20,036 bases of DNA from positions 1 through 20,036 of IMG/VR virus record IMGVR_UViG_3300042891_001526; one strand, written 5' to 3'. The notes under the pieces were generated by a model. The model saw only the letters and a program-made list of their open reading frames with translations. It did no database searches and was not told where the DNA came from. Below, in pieces: positions 4,630 through 20,036 of this stretch. Position 1 is the stretch's first letter, and each line of letters begins with the position of its first letter. This DNA comes from a virus. A program made the position numbers and the translations under genes.

Positions 4630-5436
4630 ATGGACAACAAACTATCACTTTCGGTAATTTTACCAATCAAATCGGCATTAGCTAAAGATTTTAACGAGTA
4701 TTTTGAAAAAGCTATAAAATCACTTCAATCTCAACAGGTTGAATTTGAAGAACTTGTTATTGTTCATACACAAGAAGAAACCTTAGTCAGTTTATTAAAT
4801 GATTATGATTTTGGAAACCTAAACGTAACAAAGTTACTTTGGGATAAAGAACCTAACTATTGTTCTCAAATGAACTTTGGTATTAAAAATGCTAAAGGAA
4901 AGTGGGTATCTTTATTTGAGTTTGACGATGAGTATTCTGCAATATGGTTCAAAAATTTTAAAACATATTCTGAAGCATATCCTGAAGTTCAAATGTTCCT
5001 TCCAGTTGTTGTAGACACTGATGAAAAAGATGCATTTGCAGGATTCACTAACGAAGCAACGTTTGCAGCTAACTTCTCACAAGAAATAGGATATCTAACA
5101 AATGAGACATTACAAGAATATCAAAACTTCCAAACATCAGGTTCTATAGTCAAAAAAGAAGCCTTCAATGATTTCGGAGGATTTAAACCATCAATTAAAC
5201 TGACATTCGTTTATGAACTATTGTTAAGATTAACTTACAATTCAGTTTCAATCATGACTATCCCACGTCTTGGATACAGACACTCAAATTTAAGAGAAGG
5301 TTCTATATTTTGGGGTTACAGATATGGTGACGAAAAGATTTTAGAAGATGAGGTTAAGTTTTGGATTGCATCTGCTAAAAAAGAATATTTCTTTACTGAC
5401 GACAGAGTCATAAAATATCAACCAGAGAATGAATAA
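4630..5436 (+). CDS. Glycosyltransferase family 2 (GT-A fold)
   Basis: 268 residues. LSVILPIKS at 6-14 is the standard first strand of GT2 enzymes, followed by a helix with FEKAIKSLQSQ and ELVIVHT at 41-47. NFGIKNAKGKWVSLFEFDDE at 82-101 is the classic approach to the metal-binding 'DxD' site, here DDE at 99-101. QTSGSIVKKEAFNDFGGFKP resembles the acceptor-side 'GG-F' region. The protein is shorter than bacterial GT2 enzymes with extra domains and has no membrane segment, so it is probably cytosolic. The stop codon shares one base with the ATG of the sigma-factor gene (TAATG). Likely acceptors are virion proteins, modified DNA or a surface glycan; this is inference. Confidence 0.82.
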   Translation: MDNKLSLSVILPIKSALAKDFNEYFEKAIKSLQSQQVEFEELVIVHTQEETLVSLLNDYDFGNLNVTKLLWDKEPNYCSQMNFGIKNAKGKWVSLFEFDDEYSAIWFKNFKTYSEAYPEVQMFLPVVVDTDEKDAFAGFTNEATFAANFSQEIGYLTNETLQEYQNFQTSGSIVKKEAFNDFGGFKPSIKLTFVYELLLRLTYNSVSIMTIPRLGYRHSNLREGSIFWGYRYGDEKILEDEVKFWIASAKKEYFFTDDRVIKYQPENE

Positions 5437-6185
5437 TGTCAGAAACTCTTACTGCAACAACAGAAGATGTTTCATCAAAAAAAAGGGGTAGAAAAGCGGT
5501 TAAAGAAAATTACTTTGATGTTAGAGAAGAAAACGCTGTTAGAAAATTTTTAATAACAGAAGATTATACAGAAAGGAATAAGATTTACAACGAATTTCTA
5601 AAAGCACCTTTGGACAAGATGATTTCGTCAATCATAAGACGATATAAATTATATCGTAAGGACATGGATTTTGAAGAAATTCATTGCGACACTCATTCAT
5701 TTTTAATGACTAAGGTTGACAAATTCAAACCTTCAAAAAATAAAAAGGCGTATTCGTATTTCGGCACGATTTGCAAAAATTACTTAATGGGTCAAATCAT
5801 TAAGGACCAAAAAGAAACAAACAGAAAAATATCCTATGAGGACATTTCTTCACACATTGAAGAAAGACCTGATATGATTTACCGAATAGATGATGATGTA
5901 ATTGATACCAATTTAATTTTGACACAGTATGTTAATGAATTGAAAGAATTTATTGATGGTGAAAATTTAAATGAAAACGAGAAAAAATTAGGATATGCTT
6001 TAGTTGACTTATTCCATAACTATGAAACAATTTTTAGTGGTAACGAGAATAATAAATTCAACAAAAATATAATCCTTCTTTCTTTGAGAGAAATGACAAA
6101 TTTGAGCACAAAAGAAATTCGAGGTTCAATTAAAAAATTCAAAAAACTTTACATCGTAATTCAGACTAGGTTTAAAAATCAATAA
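5436..6185 (+). CDS. gp55: Late-transcription sigma factor, T4 gp55-like
   Basis: 249 residues. After a basic N-terminus (KKRGRKAV), residues 56-130 resemble sigma-70 region 2: the helix LDKMISSIIRRYKLY, then THSFLMTKVDKFKPSKNKKAYSYF and the helix TICKNYLMGQIIKDQKETNRK, like regions 2.1-2.4 that bind the core polymerase clamp and melt the -10 element. T4 gp55 is shorter (about 185 aa). The extra C-terminal part ends in a helix-turn-helix-like block, LREMTNLSTKEIRGSIKKF (217-235), which I cannot match to gp55. In T4, gp55 directs core polymerase to late promoters lacking a -35 box. The repeated TATTTATA octamer upstream of structural genes here is the obvious candidate target. The gene directly precedes the tail module. 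Confidence 0.72.
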   Translation: MSETLTATTEDVSSKKRGRKAVKENYFDVREENAVRKFLITEDYTERNKIYNEFLKAPLDKMISSIIRRYKLYRKDMDFEEIHCDTHSFLMTKVDKFKPSKNKKAYSYFGTICKNYLMGQIIKDQKETNRKISYEDISSHIEERPDMIYRIDDDVIDTNLILTQYVNELKEFIDGENLNENEKKLGYALVDLFHNYETIFSGNENNKFNKNIILLSLREMTNLSTKEIRGSIKKFKKLYIVIQTRFKNQ

Positions 6186-12459: not shown

Positions 12460-12870
12460 ATGGAAAACAAAGTTGTGGGTTATATCCCTCGTTTATTGTT
12501 TAAAGTATATCTAAATCTAAAAGAAAGATTTGACCCTACAATCCCCATACCAGAGGAGGAAAAAATTACTGTAGAGATATGTAAAAAGTTGATTGTTGAC
12601 CCCGAGTCTAAATTAACATTTGCACCAATATCAGGGAAAAGATTCATCAAAAACGAGAATAAAAACATGTTTGTTGTGATAGAAAGTCACACAATCAATT
12701 TAATAAATCACGTTTATAGTTATTCCGTATATCTCTCAAGTCAAAGTGACTACAAAGACATTACACAAAGTTTTGATGGAGTTTTAGAGAACAAAAGGCA
12801 ATTATTAGAAGATGAAATTAGAAGTAACATTCAACATTCTTTACAAACTATTTTGAAGAAACTTGATTAA
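12460..12870 (+). CDS. Hypothetical phage protein (136 aa)
   Basis: Not recognised. 136 residues, mixed alpha/beta, soluble: an N-terminal segment VVGYIPRLLFKVYLNLKERF, a proline-rich linker (DPTIPIPEEEK), a probable beta region (LTFAPISGKRF, MFVVIESHTINL) and a C-terminal helix (ENKRQLLEDEIRSNIQHSLQ). It is preceded by a host-like promoter rather than the phage octamer. Its last 23 bases overlap the end of the convergent gene on the minus strand, with no terminator between them, so the two transcripts would be antisense to each other at their 3' ends. Confidence 0.72.
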   Translation: MENKVVGYIPRLLFKVYLNLKERFDPTIPIPEEEKITVEICKKLIVDPESKLTFAPISGKRFIKNENKNMFVVIESHTINLINHVYSYSVYLSSQSDYKDITQSFDGVLENKRQLLEDEIRSNIQHSLQTILKKLD

Positions 12871-13540
12871 AATTTTCTCTAATAACTCTTCTTATAACAT
12901 CAGATAATTGTTCGTTCTTAGGTTTGTAATGGGTCATCTTTGGTTTATTTCCAGTTCCCACTTTTGGATTTGTTTTTTCCGCATTTCTTTTCTGTTGACA
13001 TGCAGACCTTTTTTCAGACGATGTCATCTTAGCTGCAACACCAACAGCTCTACATTTTGGATATCCCTTATCTTTTGCTTCAGGTCTTCCACAGGGAGGG
13101 TGTTTACCATTTTCTTTTCTACAAATATTAACCCATGGACCTTTAGGTTGGCTACTTCCTTTTGGTTTTTTCTTTGTTCCAAACCAAACGGCTAAGTCTT
13201 CTTTAAACAATTCTTCTTTTAAAGGTGACCCATCCATTGTTGGATTAAGCGCCGAACCCTCTTCATCATTTTGATTTGTATATGATTTTTTCTTTTCCAT
13301 GTTTTTTTTACTTATTTGTCTTGTTCTCTGTTCTATTTTTTTTCTTACTGAAGGAGGTTCCAAAAAATCTCCGTCAGCCTCTTGATATGCAAGTTGTGCG
13401 TTTGTATATTTGTAAAGTTGGTCTGTAAAAGGACCTAATTGGTCATCATTCCAAATTTGTGGAGATAATACTATCGGTCCGTTGAAAACTCCAGCATTAC
13501 TTGAACCAGTACCTTCTTTTATTCGTTTTTTATTCATCAT
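12848..13540 (-). CDS. Basic Cys-containing protein with C-terminal prohead-type tag
   Basis: 230 residues from ATG 13540. The frame extends 15 codons upstream to 13585, but that would cross the TATTTATA element at 13552-13559, so the shorter start (MMNKKRIKEG) is preferred. A Lys/Glu-rich middle is followed by the block WVNICRKENGKHPPCGRPEA, then YPKCRAVGVAAKMTSSEKR and SACQQKRNAEK. This is a basic Cys-containing module that I associate, from memory, with small viral proteins such as the DUF5872-type domain; the assignment is tentative. The C-terminus NEQLSDVIRRVIRENFNQ repeats the tag pattern ending in I-R-E. With the 154-residue protein at 11967 it forms a pair sharing both a Cys-basic domain style and the tag, but with the tag at opposite ends. 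Confidence 0.75.
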   Translation of the reverse strand: MMNKKRIKEGTGSSNAGVFNGPIVLSPQIWNDDQLGPFTDQLYKYTNAQLAYQEADGDFLEPPSVRKKIEQRTRQISKKNMEKKKSYTNQNDEEGSALNPTMDGSPLKEELFKEDLAVWFGTKKKPKGSSQPKGPWVNICRKENGKHPPCGRPEAKDKGYPKCRAVGVAAKMTSSEKRSACQQKRNAEKTNPKVGTGNKPKMTHYKPKNEQLSDVIRRVIRENFNQVSSK

Positions 13541-13551
13541 TATTATCTTAG

Positions 13552-13559
13552 TATAAATA
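13552..13559 (-). promoter_or_regulatory. Candidate late promoter in divergent gap (TATTTATA on minus strand)
   Basis: The octamer lies 11 nt upstream of ATG 13540 on the minus strand. Read on the plus strand it is TATAAATA, the exact T4 late consensus, 15 nt upstream of ATG 13575. The single 34-bp gap may therefore drive both divergent genes, though the other four copies argue that the TATTTATA orientation is the active one. Confidence 0.5.
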
Positions 13560-13574
13560 TCATCACATTTTATT

Positions 13575-13799
13575 ATGGAAAACAAAAAACAACCAATCGG
13601 AGAATTATTTGAGACAATTTCTTATTTCTCACCTAGTGACATATCAAATCTTATTGACGGTCTTAATGAAGAACAATCAGTTTATATGATTGGATTGGCA
13701 ATTAATATGTGTTATCAAAAAAATTTATTCACTCTAGAGGAGTCTGAAATAATCTCTAAGTCATTACGTGTTTTGAACGAAAGTCGATTATCTAAATAA
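13575..13799 (+). CDS. Small hypothetical phage protein (74 aa)
   Basis: Unrecognised, 74 residues, helical: PIGELFETISYFSPSDISNL, MIGLAINMCYQKN, EESEIISKSLRVLNESR. Residues 21-34 (SDISNLIDGLNEEQ) look very like the tag of the 154-residue protein at 11967 (DISNLVKKVLNEEQ) with one residue fewer, and the C-terminus also has V-L-N-E. The gene diverges from the Cys-basic gene and ends in the 5' arm of a strong bidirectional terminator, so it is a self-contained unit between the two blocks. Confidence 0.7.
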   Translation: MENKKQPIGELFETISYFSPSDISNLIDGLNEEQSVYMIGLAINMCYQKNLFTLEESEIISKSLRVLNESRLSK

Positions 13800-13845: not shown

Positions 13846-15663
13846 TTATCTCAATTCTTTTAAGTCGAATGTTCTTACGCCATCAACTGTGATTCTACCG
13901 TAGAATCTGTTGTTCACCATCTTCTTAGCGTATCTAGTCATGATACCTTTGATTGGAGTGAAGTTAAACGGATTATACATTGTAGGAGTAAGTTGTAATG
14001 GAACATATGGTGCGTAGATGTAACCTGTGTCAAGTAAAGACGTTCCTTTGTGTCCCAATAACACTTGGTTTGGTGGGAAGTAAGGGTCTCTATACACTTG
14101 GTAACGACCAGCTAAAGTTCCAACTCTCTCAATACCCATGTTGTATTGGTCTTGTTCAGGAGCTGCGTTTGATACGTGGAAATATTCCAAATCATCGAAG
14201 ATTGCACTGATTTCAGAAGAAACCACAATCCAGTTAGCACCACCTCTTAAAGTAGACTTGTGGATTTGTGCAGAAACTTGGTTGATTGCTGTAATAAGCG
14301 TTTGGTTCCAGTCTTTTTGAGTATAAGGAACTGCGTTAGTACCTAATCTCTTCCAACCGTTGTAATCCCATCTCAAATTCCAAGCTGCACCTTTTCTAAG
14401 GTCTCTCAAGATTTCTCTATCAATTTCAGCTGCAACTTGCTCAGATAATAAAGCTGTTAATTCAGCTTCAGCATCGATGTTGTGGAACGCCGCAACGTCT
14501 TGTGCCATTTCTGGAGACCATTGTGCTCTTAATTTTCTTTCAGTAACAGAAACTGTTACAGATTGTAAATCGAAAGAAACTTCACCAATTCTATCTTCGA
14601 ATTCTAAGTTCTTGTAAATTCTGTAAACAGGGATAAACGCATTGTTTATAGCTGTTGTAGAAGAGAATGTTGAACCTGTGTAACCGTCAATTGTACCGCC
14701 GCAAGAGATACATGCAGGAACCTGAAGGTCTACCTCAAGATAGATTTGACCATAGACATCACAAATGTCATCGTATTGACCACCACCTGTTTTTGAGGTA
14801 GGGAAATCTAATTGTGCGTTGTTGTTACCATACTGAACGATACCTTTACCATATCTTTGAGTTACAACTCTAAATAACAATGGACCAGTTGGGTTACCCA
14901 CAAGGTTAGCAGATGTTGCAACCGTAGGGTAGATAGTTAAATCAGACAAGAATGATTCGTTGTCGATTGGGTTACCATCAGGACCAATTAATTTACCAGC
15001 TCCAGCCTGTGCAAAACCTGACATAATGATTAATACTTTTCTATAGTCATTTGTTGCGTAAGCTGTTGGGTCAAGGTTTAACGTAACGTTATTCCAAGCT
15101 GCAGTTACTGCAGAACCTGTTACAGCGGAGAATGTACCTTTAGAATAGTCATATAAACCTGGTGGGTCTAATGCTGGTTCTTCACCCTCGTAGAACTTGT
15201 CATACAATGTTCTACCTGTGTTATAGTTATAACCACTGTTAGGTGTTTGACCTGCTGTTTGGTTTGGTGAACCATAAGGTGCATAATGTTCTCCAAAATC
15301 TGAAGTTGGGTTACCACCTACTTCATAGTTTTGGATGTTAGGTACGAAGTAGAACAATTTACCGATTGGTAAGTTCATAGCTTGTACTGATACGATATCG
15401 TTTGCTAATAATTTAGAGAAAACTCTTCTAACGATAGGGAAAACCACAGTTTCGAAAGCACCTGTATCTGAAGTTGTTGAAGCTTCGTTGATAAGGTATG
15501 ATGCTTGGTTTTCATAAAGTTGTGCTACGTTCTCTCTCATGTGACCTTTAAGACCCTCTAAGAATCCTAATTTGTCCCATTTGCCGATTGTGTCTTCTTT
15601 GATAACTTTAAGGTGCTTAAGACCGATGTTACCAACAAGACCTGATTCTAATAATGCTCCCAT
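13846..15663 (-). CDS. gp23: Major capsid protein, T4 gp23-like (HK97 fold)
   Basis: 605 residues (T4 gp23 has 521). The N-terminal 60 residues form a probable propeptide ending ENQASYLINE, followed by ASTTSDTGAFETVVFPIVRR and VFSKLLANDIVSVQAM, which match the gp23 region around its maturation site (E65 in T4). The expected cleavage here is after E60 (I-N-E|A). Farther on, QWSPEMAQDVAAFHNIDAEA then ELTALLSEQVAAEIDREILR match the gp23 core, and the C-terminus (YARKMVNNRFYGRITVDGVR region) fits too. The extra length lies mainly in the middle (about 120-340), including a Cys pair in ACISCGG, possibly an insertion domain. It is the last gene of the scaffold-capsid unit, 29 nt downstream of the scaffold gene, without its own TATTTATA element. 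Confidence 0.95.
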   Translation of the reverse strand: MGALLESGLVGNIGLKHLKVIKEDTIGKWDKLGFLEGLKGHMRENVAQLYENQASYLINEASTTSDTGAFETVVFPIVRRVFSKLLANDIVSVQAMNLPIGKLFYFVPNIQNYEVGGNPTSDFGEHYAPYGSPNQTAGQTPNSGYNYNTGRTLYDKFYEGEEPALDPPGLYDYSKGTFSAVTGSAVTAAWNNVTLNLDPTAYATNDYRKVLIIMSGFAQAGAGKLIGPDGNPIDNESFLSDLTIYPTVATSANLVGNPTGPLLFRVVTQRYGKGIVQYGNNNAQLDFPTSKTGGGQYDDICDVYGQIYLEVDLQVPACISCGGTIDGYTGSTFSSTTAINNAFIPVYRIYKNLEFEDRIGEVSFDLQSVTVSVTERKLRAQWSPEMAQDVAAFHNIDAEAELTALLSEQVAAEIDREILRDLRKGAAWNLRWDYNGWKRLGTNAVPYTQKDWNQTLITAINQVSAQIHKSTLRGGANWIVVSSEISAIFDDLEYFHVSNAAPEQDQYNMGIERVGTLAGRYQVYRDPYFPPNQVLLGHKGTSLLDTGYIYAPYVPLQLTPTMYNPFNFTPIKGIMTRYAKKMVNNRFYGRITVDGVRTFDLKELR

Positions 15664-17996: not shown

Positions 17997-18713
17997 TTAT
18001 TTTTCTAAAAAATCGGTAAGTTTTTTCATCAAATCAATAGACTTATCTAAATTCTTTTCAGGTTGTTGAATTTTCTTTTCTTCTTCAAGATTTTCTTCAT
18101 AATTACCCCTCTCATTAACATCTGAAAAAAGATAAGCCCCTGGTGTAGATGGTGAAGATACTAAGTCAAAACAGATTAATTCGAAATCATCTTGAACTTC
18201 ATTTCTTTCCCCAACCTTTTTCAAGGAACCAACACCTCTTGATGAAACTCCCATTGTAACGCCTTGTCTCATTAAATTCGCCGCTTGGTCTCCCTTAGTT
18301 GAAACAATGCCTCTCTCATGAAATCCTGGTGATGTTAATAACTTCAGTTTACCCATCAAAATATTTTTATCCCACCATACATCCGTGATTATGTGGGATA
18401 CCCTATCTAAGTCAATTAGAGACGATTCTGGGTGATTTAACTCTGAAGTTGACAATCCCTTAGCAATCATCTTTTTATATCTCTCAGCCTCTCTTTTAAG
18501 GATTCTTTCAGGGTAAAATCTACCATTCCTATTTGGGGTATCATATTTCTGTAAAACCGCATAAAACTCAAAAGGGTTTTTGTAGTCTAATTTAACTGAT
18601 TCTTTAAGGAACGATGGGTTAATTTCATCGCGAGGTGAAACATAACCAGCATCCATCTCAATTAGTATTCCATGACCTGATTCATTAGCCTCAAGAATTC
18701 TTAATTTCTTCAT
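17997..18713 (-). CDS. gp21: Prohead maturation protease, T4 gp21-like (peptidase S77)
   Basis: 238 residues. Recognisable blocks in order are YAVLQKYDTPNRNGRFYPER (51-70), STSELNHPES (88-97) with the likely catalytic His94, VSHIITDVWWD (105-115), LMGKLKLLTSPG (119-130), GVTMGVSSRGVGSL (151-164) with the likely catalytic serine at 157 or 158, and FDLVSSPSTPGA (182-193) with Asp183 as the probable third residue. These match T4 gp21-type head proteases, which digest the scaffold and trim the capsid protein after (L/I)-x-E inside the prohead. The C-terminal 40 residues are charged and probably removed by self-cleavage. It is upstream of the scaffold and capsid genes, as in T4. A TATTTATT variant of the late octamer is 12 nt upstream. 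Confidence 0.93.
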   Translation of the reverse strand: MKKLRILEANESGHGILIEMDAGYVSPRDEINPSFLKESVKLDYKNPFEFYAVLQKYDTPNRNGRFYPERILKREAERYKKMIAKGLSTSELNHPESSLIDLDRVSHIITDVWWDKNILMGKLKLLTSPGFHERGIVSTKGDQAANLMRQGVTMGVSSRGVGSLKKVGERNEVQDDFELICFDLVSSPSTPGAYLFSDVNERGNYEENLEEEKKIQQPEKNLDKSIDLMKKLTDFLEK

Positions 18714-18761: not shown

Positions 18762-19190
18762 TTACTTTTTGGTTTTGTAAAAATCAAAATAGTTATTGTT
18801 TGAAAGATTATTTGTGAAGATATTTTTTACGATTCTTTTAACAGAATCTTTTAATTCTTGAGATTTAAAGTCCAACTCTTCATTAGTGTAAAGGTTTACT
18901 TCTAAATTAAAAAATGATTTTTTTCCTGTAGAAATTCCACTTGTTCTTAAATCTAAGTCAACAATACTTCGGTCCATAAAGACTGTTTGTGATATTGAAT
19001 TAAACACGGAATGTTTTATTTCACGATTAAGATTACAGACCACTCTATTCCAATTATCGTGTTCTTTTTTAGGGCAAACCCAAGATTGAATGTTAATGTA
19101 AATTGATTTTAAATTTTTCGAATCGACTGTCCCATACATAGATTTAATTGGACTATACAGATTCAACTTTACACTTTTCCCTTTTTTCAT
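18762..19190 (-). CDS. Hypothetical head-module protein (142 aa)
   Basis: Not recognised. 142 residues, basic, probable alpha/beta: a strand-rich middle (SIYINIQSWVCPKKEHDNWN, SIVDLDLRTSG, FFNLEVNLYTNEELDF) and a C-terminal amphipathic helix (ELKDSVKRIVKNIF, roughly 113-126) followed by an Asn-rich tail. That helix resembles the start of the head tag pattern but lacks the (L/I)-x-E end, so I do not count it as a tag. It lies between the partial gene at the right edge and the protease, where T4 has small head-core genes (67, 68), but no similarity to those is visible. Confidence 0.7.
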   Translation of the reverse strand: MKKGKSVKLNLYSPIKSMYGTVDSKNLKSIYINIQSWVCPKKEHDNWNRVVCNLNREIKHSVFNSISQTVFMDRSIVDLDLRTSGISTGKKSFFNLEVNLYTNEELDFKSQELKDSVKRIVKNIFTNNLSNNNYFDFYKTKK

Positions 19191-19270
19191 TAAGTTTCAT
19201 ATTATGAATGTTTATTTTAATAAAAATAACACTAATAAAACTCAATGTCAAAAATTATAAAAATAAATAA

Positions 19271-19278
19271 TATTTATT
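19271..19278 (+). promoter_or_regulatory. Weak candidate promoter of rpsU-like gene (TATTTATT)
   Basis: ATATTTATTTTCA lies 6 nt upstream of the bS21 ATG, in the 94-bp, strongly AT-rich divergent gap 19191-19284. It is the same last-base variant as upstream of the protease. The gap offers no Shine-Dalgarno sequence and no other clear element. Confidence 0.3.
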
Positions 19279-19284
19279 TTCAAT

Positions 19285-19473
19285 ATGTTAATAATCGAAA
19301 TAAAAAATAATGAAAATATTGAAAAGGCTTTAAAGACTTTAAAATCTAAAGTAATTAAAACTAAGCAGAATCAACAATTAATGGGTAGAAAAGAATTTAC
19401 TAAACAATCTGTTGAGAAAAGAGCTCAGAAATTAAAAGCAATTTACAAACAAAGGAAACTTAACGAATTATAA
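19285..19473 (+). CDS. rpsU: Ribosomal protein bS21
   Basis: 62 residues, the usual bS21 size. The start MLIIEIKNNENIEKALKTLK matches the family N-terminus (MLIIPVK-x-GE-x-I-x-x-ALK-x-x-K), followed by the central block LMGRKEFTKQSVEKRAQKLK, equivalent to LR-x-R-x-x-(F/Y)-x-KPS-x-x-R, and a basic C-terminal helix (AIYKQRKLNEL). bS21 sits on the 30S platform near the 3' end of 16S rRNA. Phage copies are known in some T4-like and huge phages. It is the only plus-strand gene in this part of the head block, has its own AT-rich upstream gap, and converges with the next minus gene with a 6-bp overlap, as expected for an acquired accessory gene. No Shine-Dalgarno sequence precedes it. Confidence 0.88.
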   Translation: MLIIEIKNNENIEKALKTLKSKVIKTKQNQQLMGRKEFTKQSVEKRAQKLKAIYKQRKLNEL

Positions 19474-20036
19474 GTTTTTTTCCAAATTAACTAATTTGAA
19501 ATAGTTAATTTGATTAAACTCCTCTGCTTTCAACTTGTCAATTGTTTCTGATATTTTTTCAATAACATCACTTTCTTTTTGCTCACCAAGAATTGAGTTT
19601 AATTTTTCTATAGTTTTCTCTTTAAGAACTGAGAAATCTTCCTTAAGGCTATCTCCATCAGATTTCAAGATTTCAATAAATGTCTTTTTTGATTGCTCAT
19701 CCATAGTATCAACATAATTCTCTAATGTTTGGTTTGCAATTCTAACCATAGTGCTTATAGGAATTTGTATAGATTCTTTTACAATTTTGTTTTCAGACAT
19801 CAAAACTTTAATTAGATTCTTTCTTGATTGTAATCTTTCGTGAATATTAAGTTTGTTAATATAAACTAAAGTGTCAATATCCGAATATAAATTTTCATTA
19901 ATTTCAGAAACACTTTTTGGCATTTTAATATTTGGTAATAACTTTTGAATTAATCCAATTCCTTCATTCAAAAATTCATTGGCATCAGAACTACTTAAAC
20001 CTTGAGAACTTGATAATTGGTCATACAGGTTATAAA
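19468..20036 (-). CDS. Hypothetical helical protein, C-terminal part (5' end outside window)
   Basis: The minus-strand frame stays open to the right edge (residues NLYDQLSSSQGLSSSDANEF precede the first TTG at 19971), so this is the last 189 or so residues of a longer protein. It is almost wholly helical with coiled-coil stretches (DEQSKKTFIEILKSDGDSL, VLKEKTIEKLNSILGEQ, DVIEKISETIDKLKAEEF). The visible N-terminal part is Ser/Gln-rich and disordered. I do not recognise it. It ends in a 6-bp convergent overlap with the bS21 gene. In T4 the genes next on this side would be head-core genes and the portal; helical character fits a core or neck component, but no motif proves it. Confidence 0.72.
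   Translation of the reverse strand, partial: YNLYDQLSSSQGLSSSDANEFLNEGIGLIQKLLPNIKMPKSVSEINENLYSDIDTLVYINKLNIHERLQSRKNLIKVLMSENKIVKESIQIPISTMVRIANQTLENYVDTMDEQSKKTFIEILKSDGDSLKEDFSVLKEKTIEKLNSILGEQKESDVIEKISETIDKLKAEEFNQINYFKLVNLEKNL

Follow-up and report, generated by a model that had tools for sequence, protein, structure and literature searches.

Of the ribosomal proteins that Mizuno et al. (2019; PMC6375957) detected in viral metagenomes, 88% were bS21, but the reason why phages carry it is unsettled. The bS21 of Pelagibacter phage HTVC008M enters Escherichia coli ribosomes, where it was detected in ribosome fractions, and it left these ribosomes about 5% active, i.e. nearly inactive (Mizuno et al., 2019). 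In 47 Bacteroidetes phage genomes the bS21 gene lies on the reverse strand, in a conserved stretch for head formation and packaging that also holds the terminase, portal, protease and capsid genes; Tyr54 or another aromatic residue is kept and the gene is transcribed along with the structural genes (Chen et al., 2022; PMC9723584). On the host side, rpsU of Flavobacterium johnsoniae is autoregulated through an extended Shine–Dalgarno (SD) sequence. When bS21 is missing, initiation by ribosomes of this organism is faster on rpsU and slower on mRNAs that have no SD (McNutt et al., 2023; PMC9976891), and Tyr54 of its bS21 stacks on A1534 (McNutt et al., 2023; Chen et al., 2022).

We analysed a virus record of 20,036 bases (hereafter the window), probably a fragment. 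The nearest relatives of its head protein are in uncultured phages and in phages of Microcystis and Flavobacterium, and there are matches in many T4-like phages; the window probably derives from a T4-like phage with a host among the Bacteroidota. Its bS21 gene is antisense to protease and capsid genes and lies between two conserved uncharacterised genes. In this arrangement, as in the aromatic residue 54, the divergent N-terminal signature, the predicted Bacteroidetes host and the proposed late takeover of the ribosome, it resembles the phages of Chen et al. (2022), who have already reported such genes with the same takeover idea. Given this precedent and that of Mizuno et al. (2019), the window bS21 belongs to a kind that has already been published. 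Terminase, the marker of clades a–e of Chen et al. (2022), is absent from the 20 kb of the window. The HTVC008M protein is likewise phage-encoded but differs in its alphaproteobacterial host and bS21 type. While the window phage and those of Chen et al. (2022) are the same in kind, the leaders and the missing SD were examined here; the searched text of that paper does not contain the words ‘promoter’ or ‘leader’. What is new is the SD contrast between host and phage and the promoter-like box before bS21, and in the passages of open PubMed Central papers that we searched, we found no report that phage bS21 genes lack an SD, nor any of the TATTTAT box.

On balance we think it rather probable, if far from certain, that the phage makes its own bS21, late and from a phage promoter, and that this protein would enter the 30S subunit, keep the anti-SD tail occluded and hold host rpsU repressed.

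The encoded protein

The original prediction, made from the letters alone, took the product for a bS21 matching from its first residue, pointed to a central R-K-x-F-x-K block and named a search with Pfam PF01165 (Ribosomal_S21) as the check. That search gives a significant match (E = 2.9e-11, 43.4 bits against a cut-off of 27), with residues 4–57 of the 62-residue product aligned to profile positions 2–55 of 55, and the top PDB sequences, 7jil_z (E = 1.3e-9), which is the F. johnsoniae bS21 (Chen et al., 2022), and 9i5v_9 (E = 2.1e-8), both align from residue 1. PHROG 21469, ‘ribosomal protein S21’, also matches (E = 1.5e-4), and the NCBIfam equivalog TIGR00030 does so with E = 3.1e-6 and 26.9 bits, about 2 bits under its cut-off of 28.95. 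The central block is present as R35-K-E-F-T-K-Q-S-V-E-K-R46. Its K-Q-S had been thought worth noting; the triplet is real but ordinary in these phages, residue 41 being Lys in 23, Pro in 17, Gln in six, Asp in one and Asn in one of 48 distinct phage proteins, as against Pro in 76 and Lys in three of 79 distinct host proteins. Residue 54, Tyr in the window protein, is Tyr in 45 of the 48, Phe in two and His in one. Judged by these features the window protein is a genuine Bacteroidota-type bS21, in which Tyr54 is predicted to stack on A1534.

The median dN/dS of phage bS21 is 0.154, from the 60 of 325 representative pairs with usable dS, a value in line with purifying selection. A single origin of phage bS21 was considered and set aside. 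A tree built on only 64 columns gathers the 48 phage rows on a single side (support 100/99), but this one-sidedness is partly an artefact of selection, because the rows were chosen for their closeness to the window, and long branches also meet there.

Residues 20–28 read KSKVIKTKQ in 45 of the 48 distinct phage proteins, unlike the host copies; the F. johnsoniae chain has KRKFDKTGT. Arg21, Phe23, Asp25 and Thr28 are listed as divergent by Chen et al. (2022), in whose explanation the divergent N-terminal part, not occlusion of the SD-binding tail, makes ribosomes prefer phage transcripts. We regard this as unlikely, though it merits weighing. An mRNA feature for such a protein to read was not found here, poverty in SD sequences is common to phage genes and hosts (McNutt et al., 2023) and the divergence could be drift or a fit to a particular host.

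Shine–Dalgarno pairing in phage and host leaders

Leaders (positions −25 to −1) were paired with the 14-nt tail of 16S rRNA, in the letters that we take it to have, and pairing of −7 kcal/mol or below was called strong. The host sample consisted of the best 80 of at least 530 confirmed loci in bacterial genome records; it includes L090, of uncertain phylum, and two loci labelled Proteobacteria (L150 and L152), which encode proteins resembling Flavobacterium and Crocinitomicaceae copies and are probably binning errors. Host rpsU has a strong SD in 54 of the 80 leaders, and 46 reach −13 kcal/mol; mock regions reach −7 kcal/mol four times (3/79 with full-length leaders only). None of 80 phage bS21 leaders, those of the window and of 79 further loci, does so (0/52 distinct leaders; one locus with an incomplete leader was left out), and the strongest pairing among them is −4.9 kcal/mol. 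The absence of an SD, predicted for the window gene, thus extends to all of these phage leaders.

Like F. johnsoniae rpsU, the window gene encodes a Bacteroidia-type bS21 with Tyr54; unlike it, the gene has no SD and carries a phage-type box at its start. The exceptionally strong SD that is the hallmark of an autoregulated rpsU is missing from phage bS21, which should therefore be exempt from the SD-based autoregulation described for F. johnsoniae. A strong SD is also absent from 26 of the 80 host leaders, Chryseobacterium and Saprospiria relatives among them, so the gene may derive from a donor without an SD, in which case no loss has to be assumed. A second scan, with host bS21 queries, gave 37 loci, 34 of which were examined; L235, L238 and L241, in which the match begins inside the protein, were left out. 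The protein of L205 is identical to a Chryseobacterium copy and this locus looks like host DNA. Among 15 loci judged by eye to lie outside the window clade, none reaches −13 kcal/mol and one reaches −7 kcal/mol (L206, at −9.7 kcal/mol). In L237 and L240, more distant viral contigs, bS21 appears by eye to start closely after an apparent tRNA 3′ end that lies just before position 2501.

Eight phage records, the window and seven that were fetched, were used for the other phage genes, with gene starts from a simple longest-ORF caller. The statement that nearly all of the phage genes lack an SD is borne out with this caller, one of 25 window genes reaching −7 kcal/mol against 3/25 mock regions. The median pairing in the SD region is −1.4 kcal/mol in the window (mock −2.3 kcal/mol) and −1.7 to −2.0 kcal/mol in seven of the eight records, where the mock regions pair more strongly (−2.5 to −3.4 kcal/mol). 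In a 317-kb record 15 of 395 starts are at −9 kcal/mol or below, compared with 29/395 mock regions. A phage gene with an SD like that of host rpsU was sought and rejected: the sole case at −9 kcal/mol or below in the two closest long records (−17.8 kcal/mol in each) falls within the last part of the gene before it.

In the explanation offered with the original prediction, 30S subunits are saturated with phage bS21 so that the phage leader types win. The phage genes are indeed without SDs, with medians weaker than mock in the window and in seven of the eight records, but Flavobacteriales host mRNAs are likewise SD-poor (McNutt et al., 2023) and, except for rpsU, phage and host cannot be told apart by leader class. 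As most host mRNAs also have no SD, saturation with bS21 alone cannot favour phage leaders; the mRNA that it would clearly disfavour is host rpsU itself (McNutt et al., 2023). The explanation is improbable, more bS21 giving phage leaders no obvious advantage by their class.

Gene order around bS21

Relatives were taken from a scan of IMG/VR (the best 80 of at least 563 confirmed), and the window proteins were sought in them by tblastn. As had been described, bS21 stands alone on the plus strand beside a minus-strand head module, opposite to both of its neighbours and to the head genes (Table 1). It had also been likened to an acquired accessory gene, and here the fetched relatives lend the description no support, orientation and both neighbours being kept wherever room allowed. 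Both neighbours are present in every locus that offers at least 600 nt of room, and all matches in the 80 loci, to the divergent and convergent neighbours, the protease, a 544-aa window protein with no family match (58/80 loci) and the major head protein (43/80), are antisense to bS21. Many loci are short, which partly explains the lower counts; a 245-aa window protein (12848–13585) was found by tblastn in none of the 80. Since orientation and neighbours are kept in the relatives, bS21 has the character of a stable component of the module.

Table 1. Features of the window discussed in the text, with their positions.
Feature	Position	Strand	Details
bS21 gene	19285–19473	+	62 aa; ATG start; Tyr54; Pfam and PDB matches
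Divergent neighbour	18762–19190	−	142 aa; no assigned function; in 78/80 loci, all antisense to bS21; pLDDT 91.4
Convergent neighbour	19468–19971	−	167 aa; no assigned function; in 79/80 loci, all antisense to bS21
Head maturation protease	17997–18713	−	phrog_207, E = 1e-42; in 73/80 loci, all antisense to bS21
Major head protein	13846–15663	−	phrog_138, E = 4.6e-65
Possible gp55-like late sigma factor	5436–6185	+	Candidate reader of the box; weak matches
TATTTAT promoter-like box	19271–19277	+	Starts 14 nt upstream of the bS21 ATG
GTCAAAA conserved element near −38 of bS21	19247–19253	+	RTCAAA kept in relatives
GTTTATTTT..AAAAATAA conserved block near −75 of bS21	19210–19229		Alignment of 26 representatives

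The bS21 stop codon overlaps that of the convergent gene by 6 nt (19468–19473, TTATAA). An overlap of 4, 6 or 9 nt is found in 78 of 79 measured loci, the window included, and the mRNAs of bS21 and this neighbour may therefore be antisense at their 3′ ends. The length given for the convergent gene assumes that it starts with TTG; an alternative ATG start lies at 19923. The divergent intergenic region is 82–104 nt in 75 measured loci. The divergent neighbour itself is strongly conserved, with a confident predicted fold that has no clear solved relative. Its assignment as a known bS21-exchange factor or protease found no support, the PDB matches being weak (best Foldseek E = 0.016); a VIA search with the model gave a best Z of 7.2 with many unrelated ties, a tblastn search against the phage collection gave no match, and one uncharacterised myovirus protein shares the fold (TM 0.81).

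The place beside the head genes, kept in the fetched relatives, and the packaging raised as a possibility by Chen et al. (2022) might point to a bS21 carried in the virion or used in head assembly, but the protein keeps its ribosomal features, Tyr54 included, and we consider such a role most improbable.

A promoter-like box before bS21 and other phage genes

In a box model built without bS21, the TATTTAT at 19271 scores 9.5 and is the top plus-strand intergenic site, the next scoring 1.9. Of 52 distinct phage leaders, 39 have TATTT[AG]T starting at −18 to −10, where 0.8 would be expected; the starts in these 39 are 12–16 nt before the ATG, with a mode of −12 in the relatives. A looser form is found in 50 (3.8 expected); for either form the count in host leaders is 1/79. 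TATTTGT, which fits the box model less well, predominates in the relatives. Given the spacing between box and ATG, a late mRNA with no leader or hardly any is predicted. By the criterion of Zheng et al. (2011; PMC3160421) a leaderless gene has a −10-like box about 12 nt before its start, with consensus TANNNT; the position of the bS21 box fits (−14), but TATTTAT and TATTTGT differ from that consensus. In F. johnsoniae leaders of more than 10 nt are found on 87% of predicted transcripts (PMC6847099).

Further upstream, RTCAAA lies at −50 to −28 in 51 of the 52 distinct phage leaders and in none of 79 host leaders. The combination GTCAAAA-N{14,24}-ATATTT was rejected as a general late promoter: it occurs one to three times per record in 12 long records (0 or 1 in the reversed control), one match being the bS21 leader in eight of them, whereas it is absent from that leader in the four largest. 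The block GTTTATTTT..AAAAATAA is possibly a second promoter, in either direction; as an upstream promoter with a long leader it would weaken the leaderless reading. An upstream ORF at 19245 was discarded, as it is not conserved and several relatives have no ATG there.

TATTTAT is enriched upstream of genes on the coding strand of the eight phage records. With bS21 set aside, a box is found at 144 of 342 gene starts, against 11 after shuffling. In six records (all but the window and G002, a close relative of it) genes with a gap of at least 25 nt have TATTTAT at −16 to −9 in 59/348 cases and at −24 to −17 in 54/348; the corresponding counts are 28/420 and 12/420 for genes with smaller gaps, and 10/348 and 3/348 for the reverse complement before the gapped genes. 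Where a box at −26 to −17 is followed by a run of A, the run starts 9–12 nt past the box in 41 of 45 cases, and its position is closer to fixed relative to the box (s.d. 1.53) than to the ATG (s.d. 2.27). With a box at −16 to −9 the ATG itself stands about where the A-run would begin and the leader is not A-rich, the A fraction in −9 to −1 being 0.31, compared with 0.53 in the other box class and 0.43 in other genes. From these two spacings the transcript would begin about there, and the close-spaced class would be leaderless or nearly so. The simplest reading of the sequences is that TATTTAT is a promoter with a transcript start some 9–12 nt downstream.

There are ten copies of TATTTAT in the window, on both strands, seven of them 11–30 nt before a gene start and in the right orientation. 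None lies just upstream of the major head protein gene, and the same holds for the major capsid protein of the cultured Flavobacterium phage immuto. In immuto (58 starts, part of the deposited annotation) the 60-nt leaders contain 16 copies of TATTTAT and seven of its reverse complement; the box precedes terminase (−25), a gp20-type protein (−24) and tail sheath (−33), and just two sites are close-spaced (−10 and −12). The box was found in none of ten tRNA upstream gaps (gaps of at least 40 nt, last 80 nt), nor in the leader of the tRNA-Ser of L193, and one copy starts 38 nt upstream of the tmRNA. By eye, some tRNA leaders look like the host-type TAnnTTTG, which has a lesser peak at −15 to −11 of coding genes (17/379 with gaps, 12/465 without). 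The tRNA check therefore lends no support to the box as a general promoter and is compatible with late-only use.

In favour of late-made phage bS21 acting in the ribosome we count the bS21 family and Tyr54, the SD contrast, the enrichment and placement of the box, the immuto boxes, the kept arrangement and the dN/dS, together with the published behaviour of F. johnsoniae ribosomes that lack bS21, the transcription of phage bS21 with structural genes and the entry of a phage bS21 into E. coli ribosomes. Against it we count the 26/80 hosts that themselves have no strong SD, TATTTGT in the relatives, the lack of a box at the head protein, the −75 block and the near-inactivity of E. coli ribosomes with HTVC008M bS21 (Mizuno et al., 2019). 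Made late, under a phage promoter next to the head genes, the protein would join the 30S subunit, replacing or supplementing host bS21, and its Tyr54 would keep the anti-SD tail occluded, so that ribosomes would remain suited to mRNAs without an SD, whether from host or phage. It would supply bS21 when host synthesis fails, leaving 30S subunits complete late in infection, and would keep host rpsU repressed. As the phage bS21 mRNA is SD-less and probably leaderless or nearly so, bS21-replete ribosomes should not shut off its synthesis; host rpsU, by contrast, would be shut off by them.

More tentatively, we entertain the possibility that the gene is built to be immune to host autoregulation, with no SD and with a late promoter abutting the start codon that would yield a leaderless mRNA. 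If so, phage bS21 would be translated regardless of the bS21 state of the ribosome, bS21 would be replenished and host rpsU would be locked in repression. About one in six gapped gene starts in these phages (59/348) would then yield leaderless or nearly leaderless mRNAs, in contrast to the host group, the transcripts of which are mostly leadered. The SD contrast and the start-codon box turn the notion that a phage hijacks ribosomes into predictions that are testable in a laboratory strain; F. johnsoniae offers a defined readout, namely the gain in translation of SD-bearing rpsU by ribosomes that lack bS21.

Late transcription in T4 uses gp55 and the box TATAAATA. The window phage may resemble this system, with a short −10-like box before putative late genes and a weakly gp55-like ORF, and differs in the box itself, which is TATTTAT, TATAAATA not being enriched. 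The ORF matches phrog_234 (E = 0.005) and Pfam Sigma70_r2 (E = 0.054) weakly, gp55 is its sole PDB match (E = 0.089) and its identity across five aligned long records is 81–94%. The left end of the window holds a weak sugar-methyltransferase match (279–875), a nucleotide-sugar epimerase (877–1968) and a PhoH-like protein (1975–2709). A related bS21 phage has a rich set of translation genes: in L192, which is part of the 317-kb record behind L079, there are a tmRNA gene and 23 tRNA genes (at 1730–2123 and 11277–17260 of L192), and L193 has one further tRNA.
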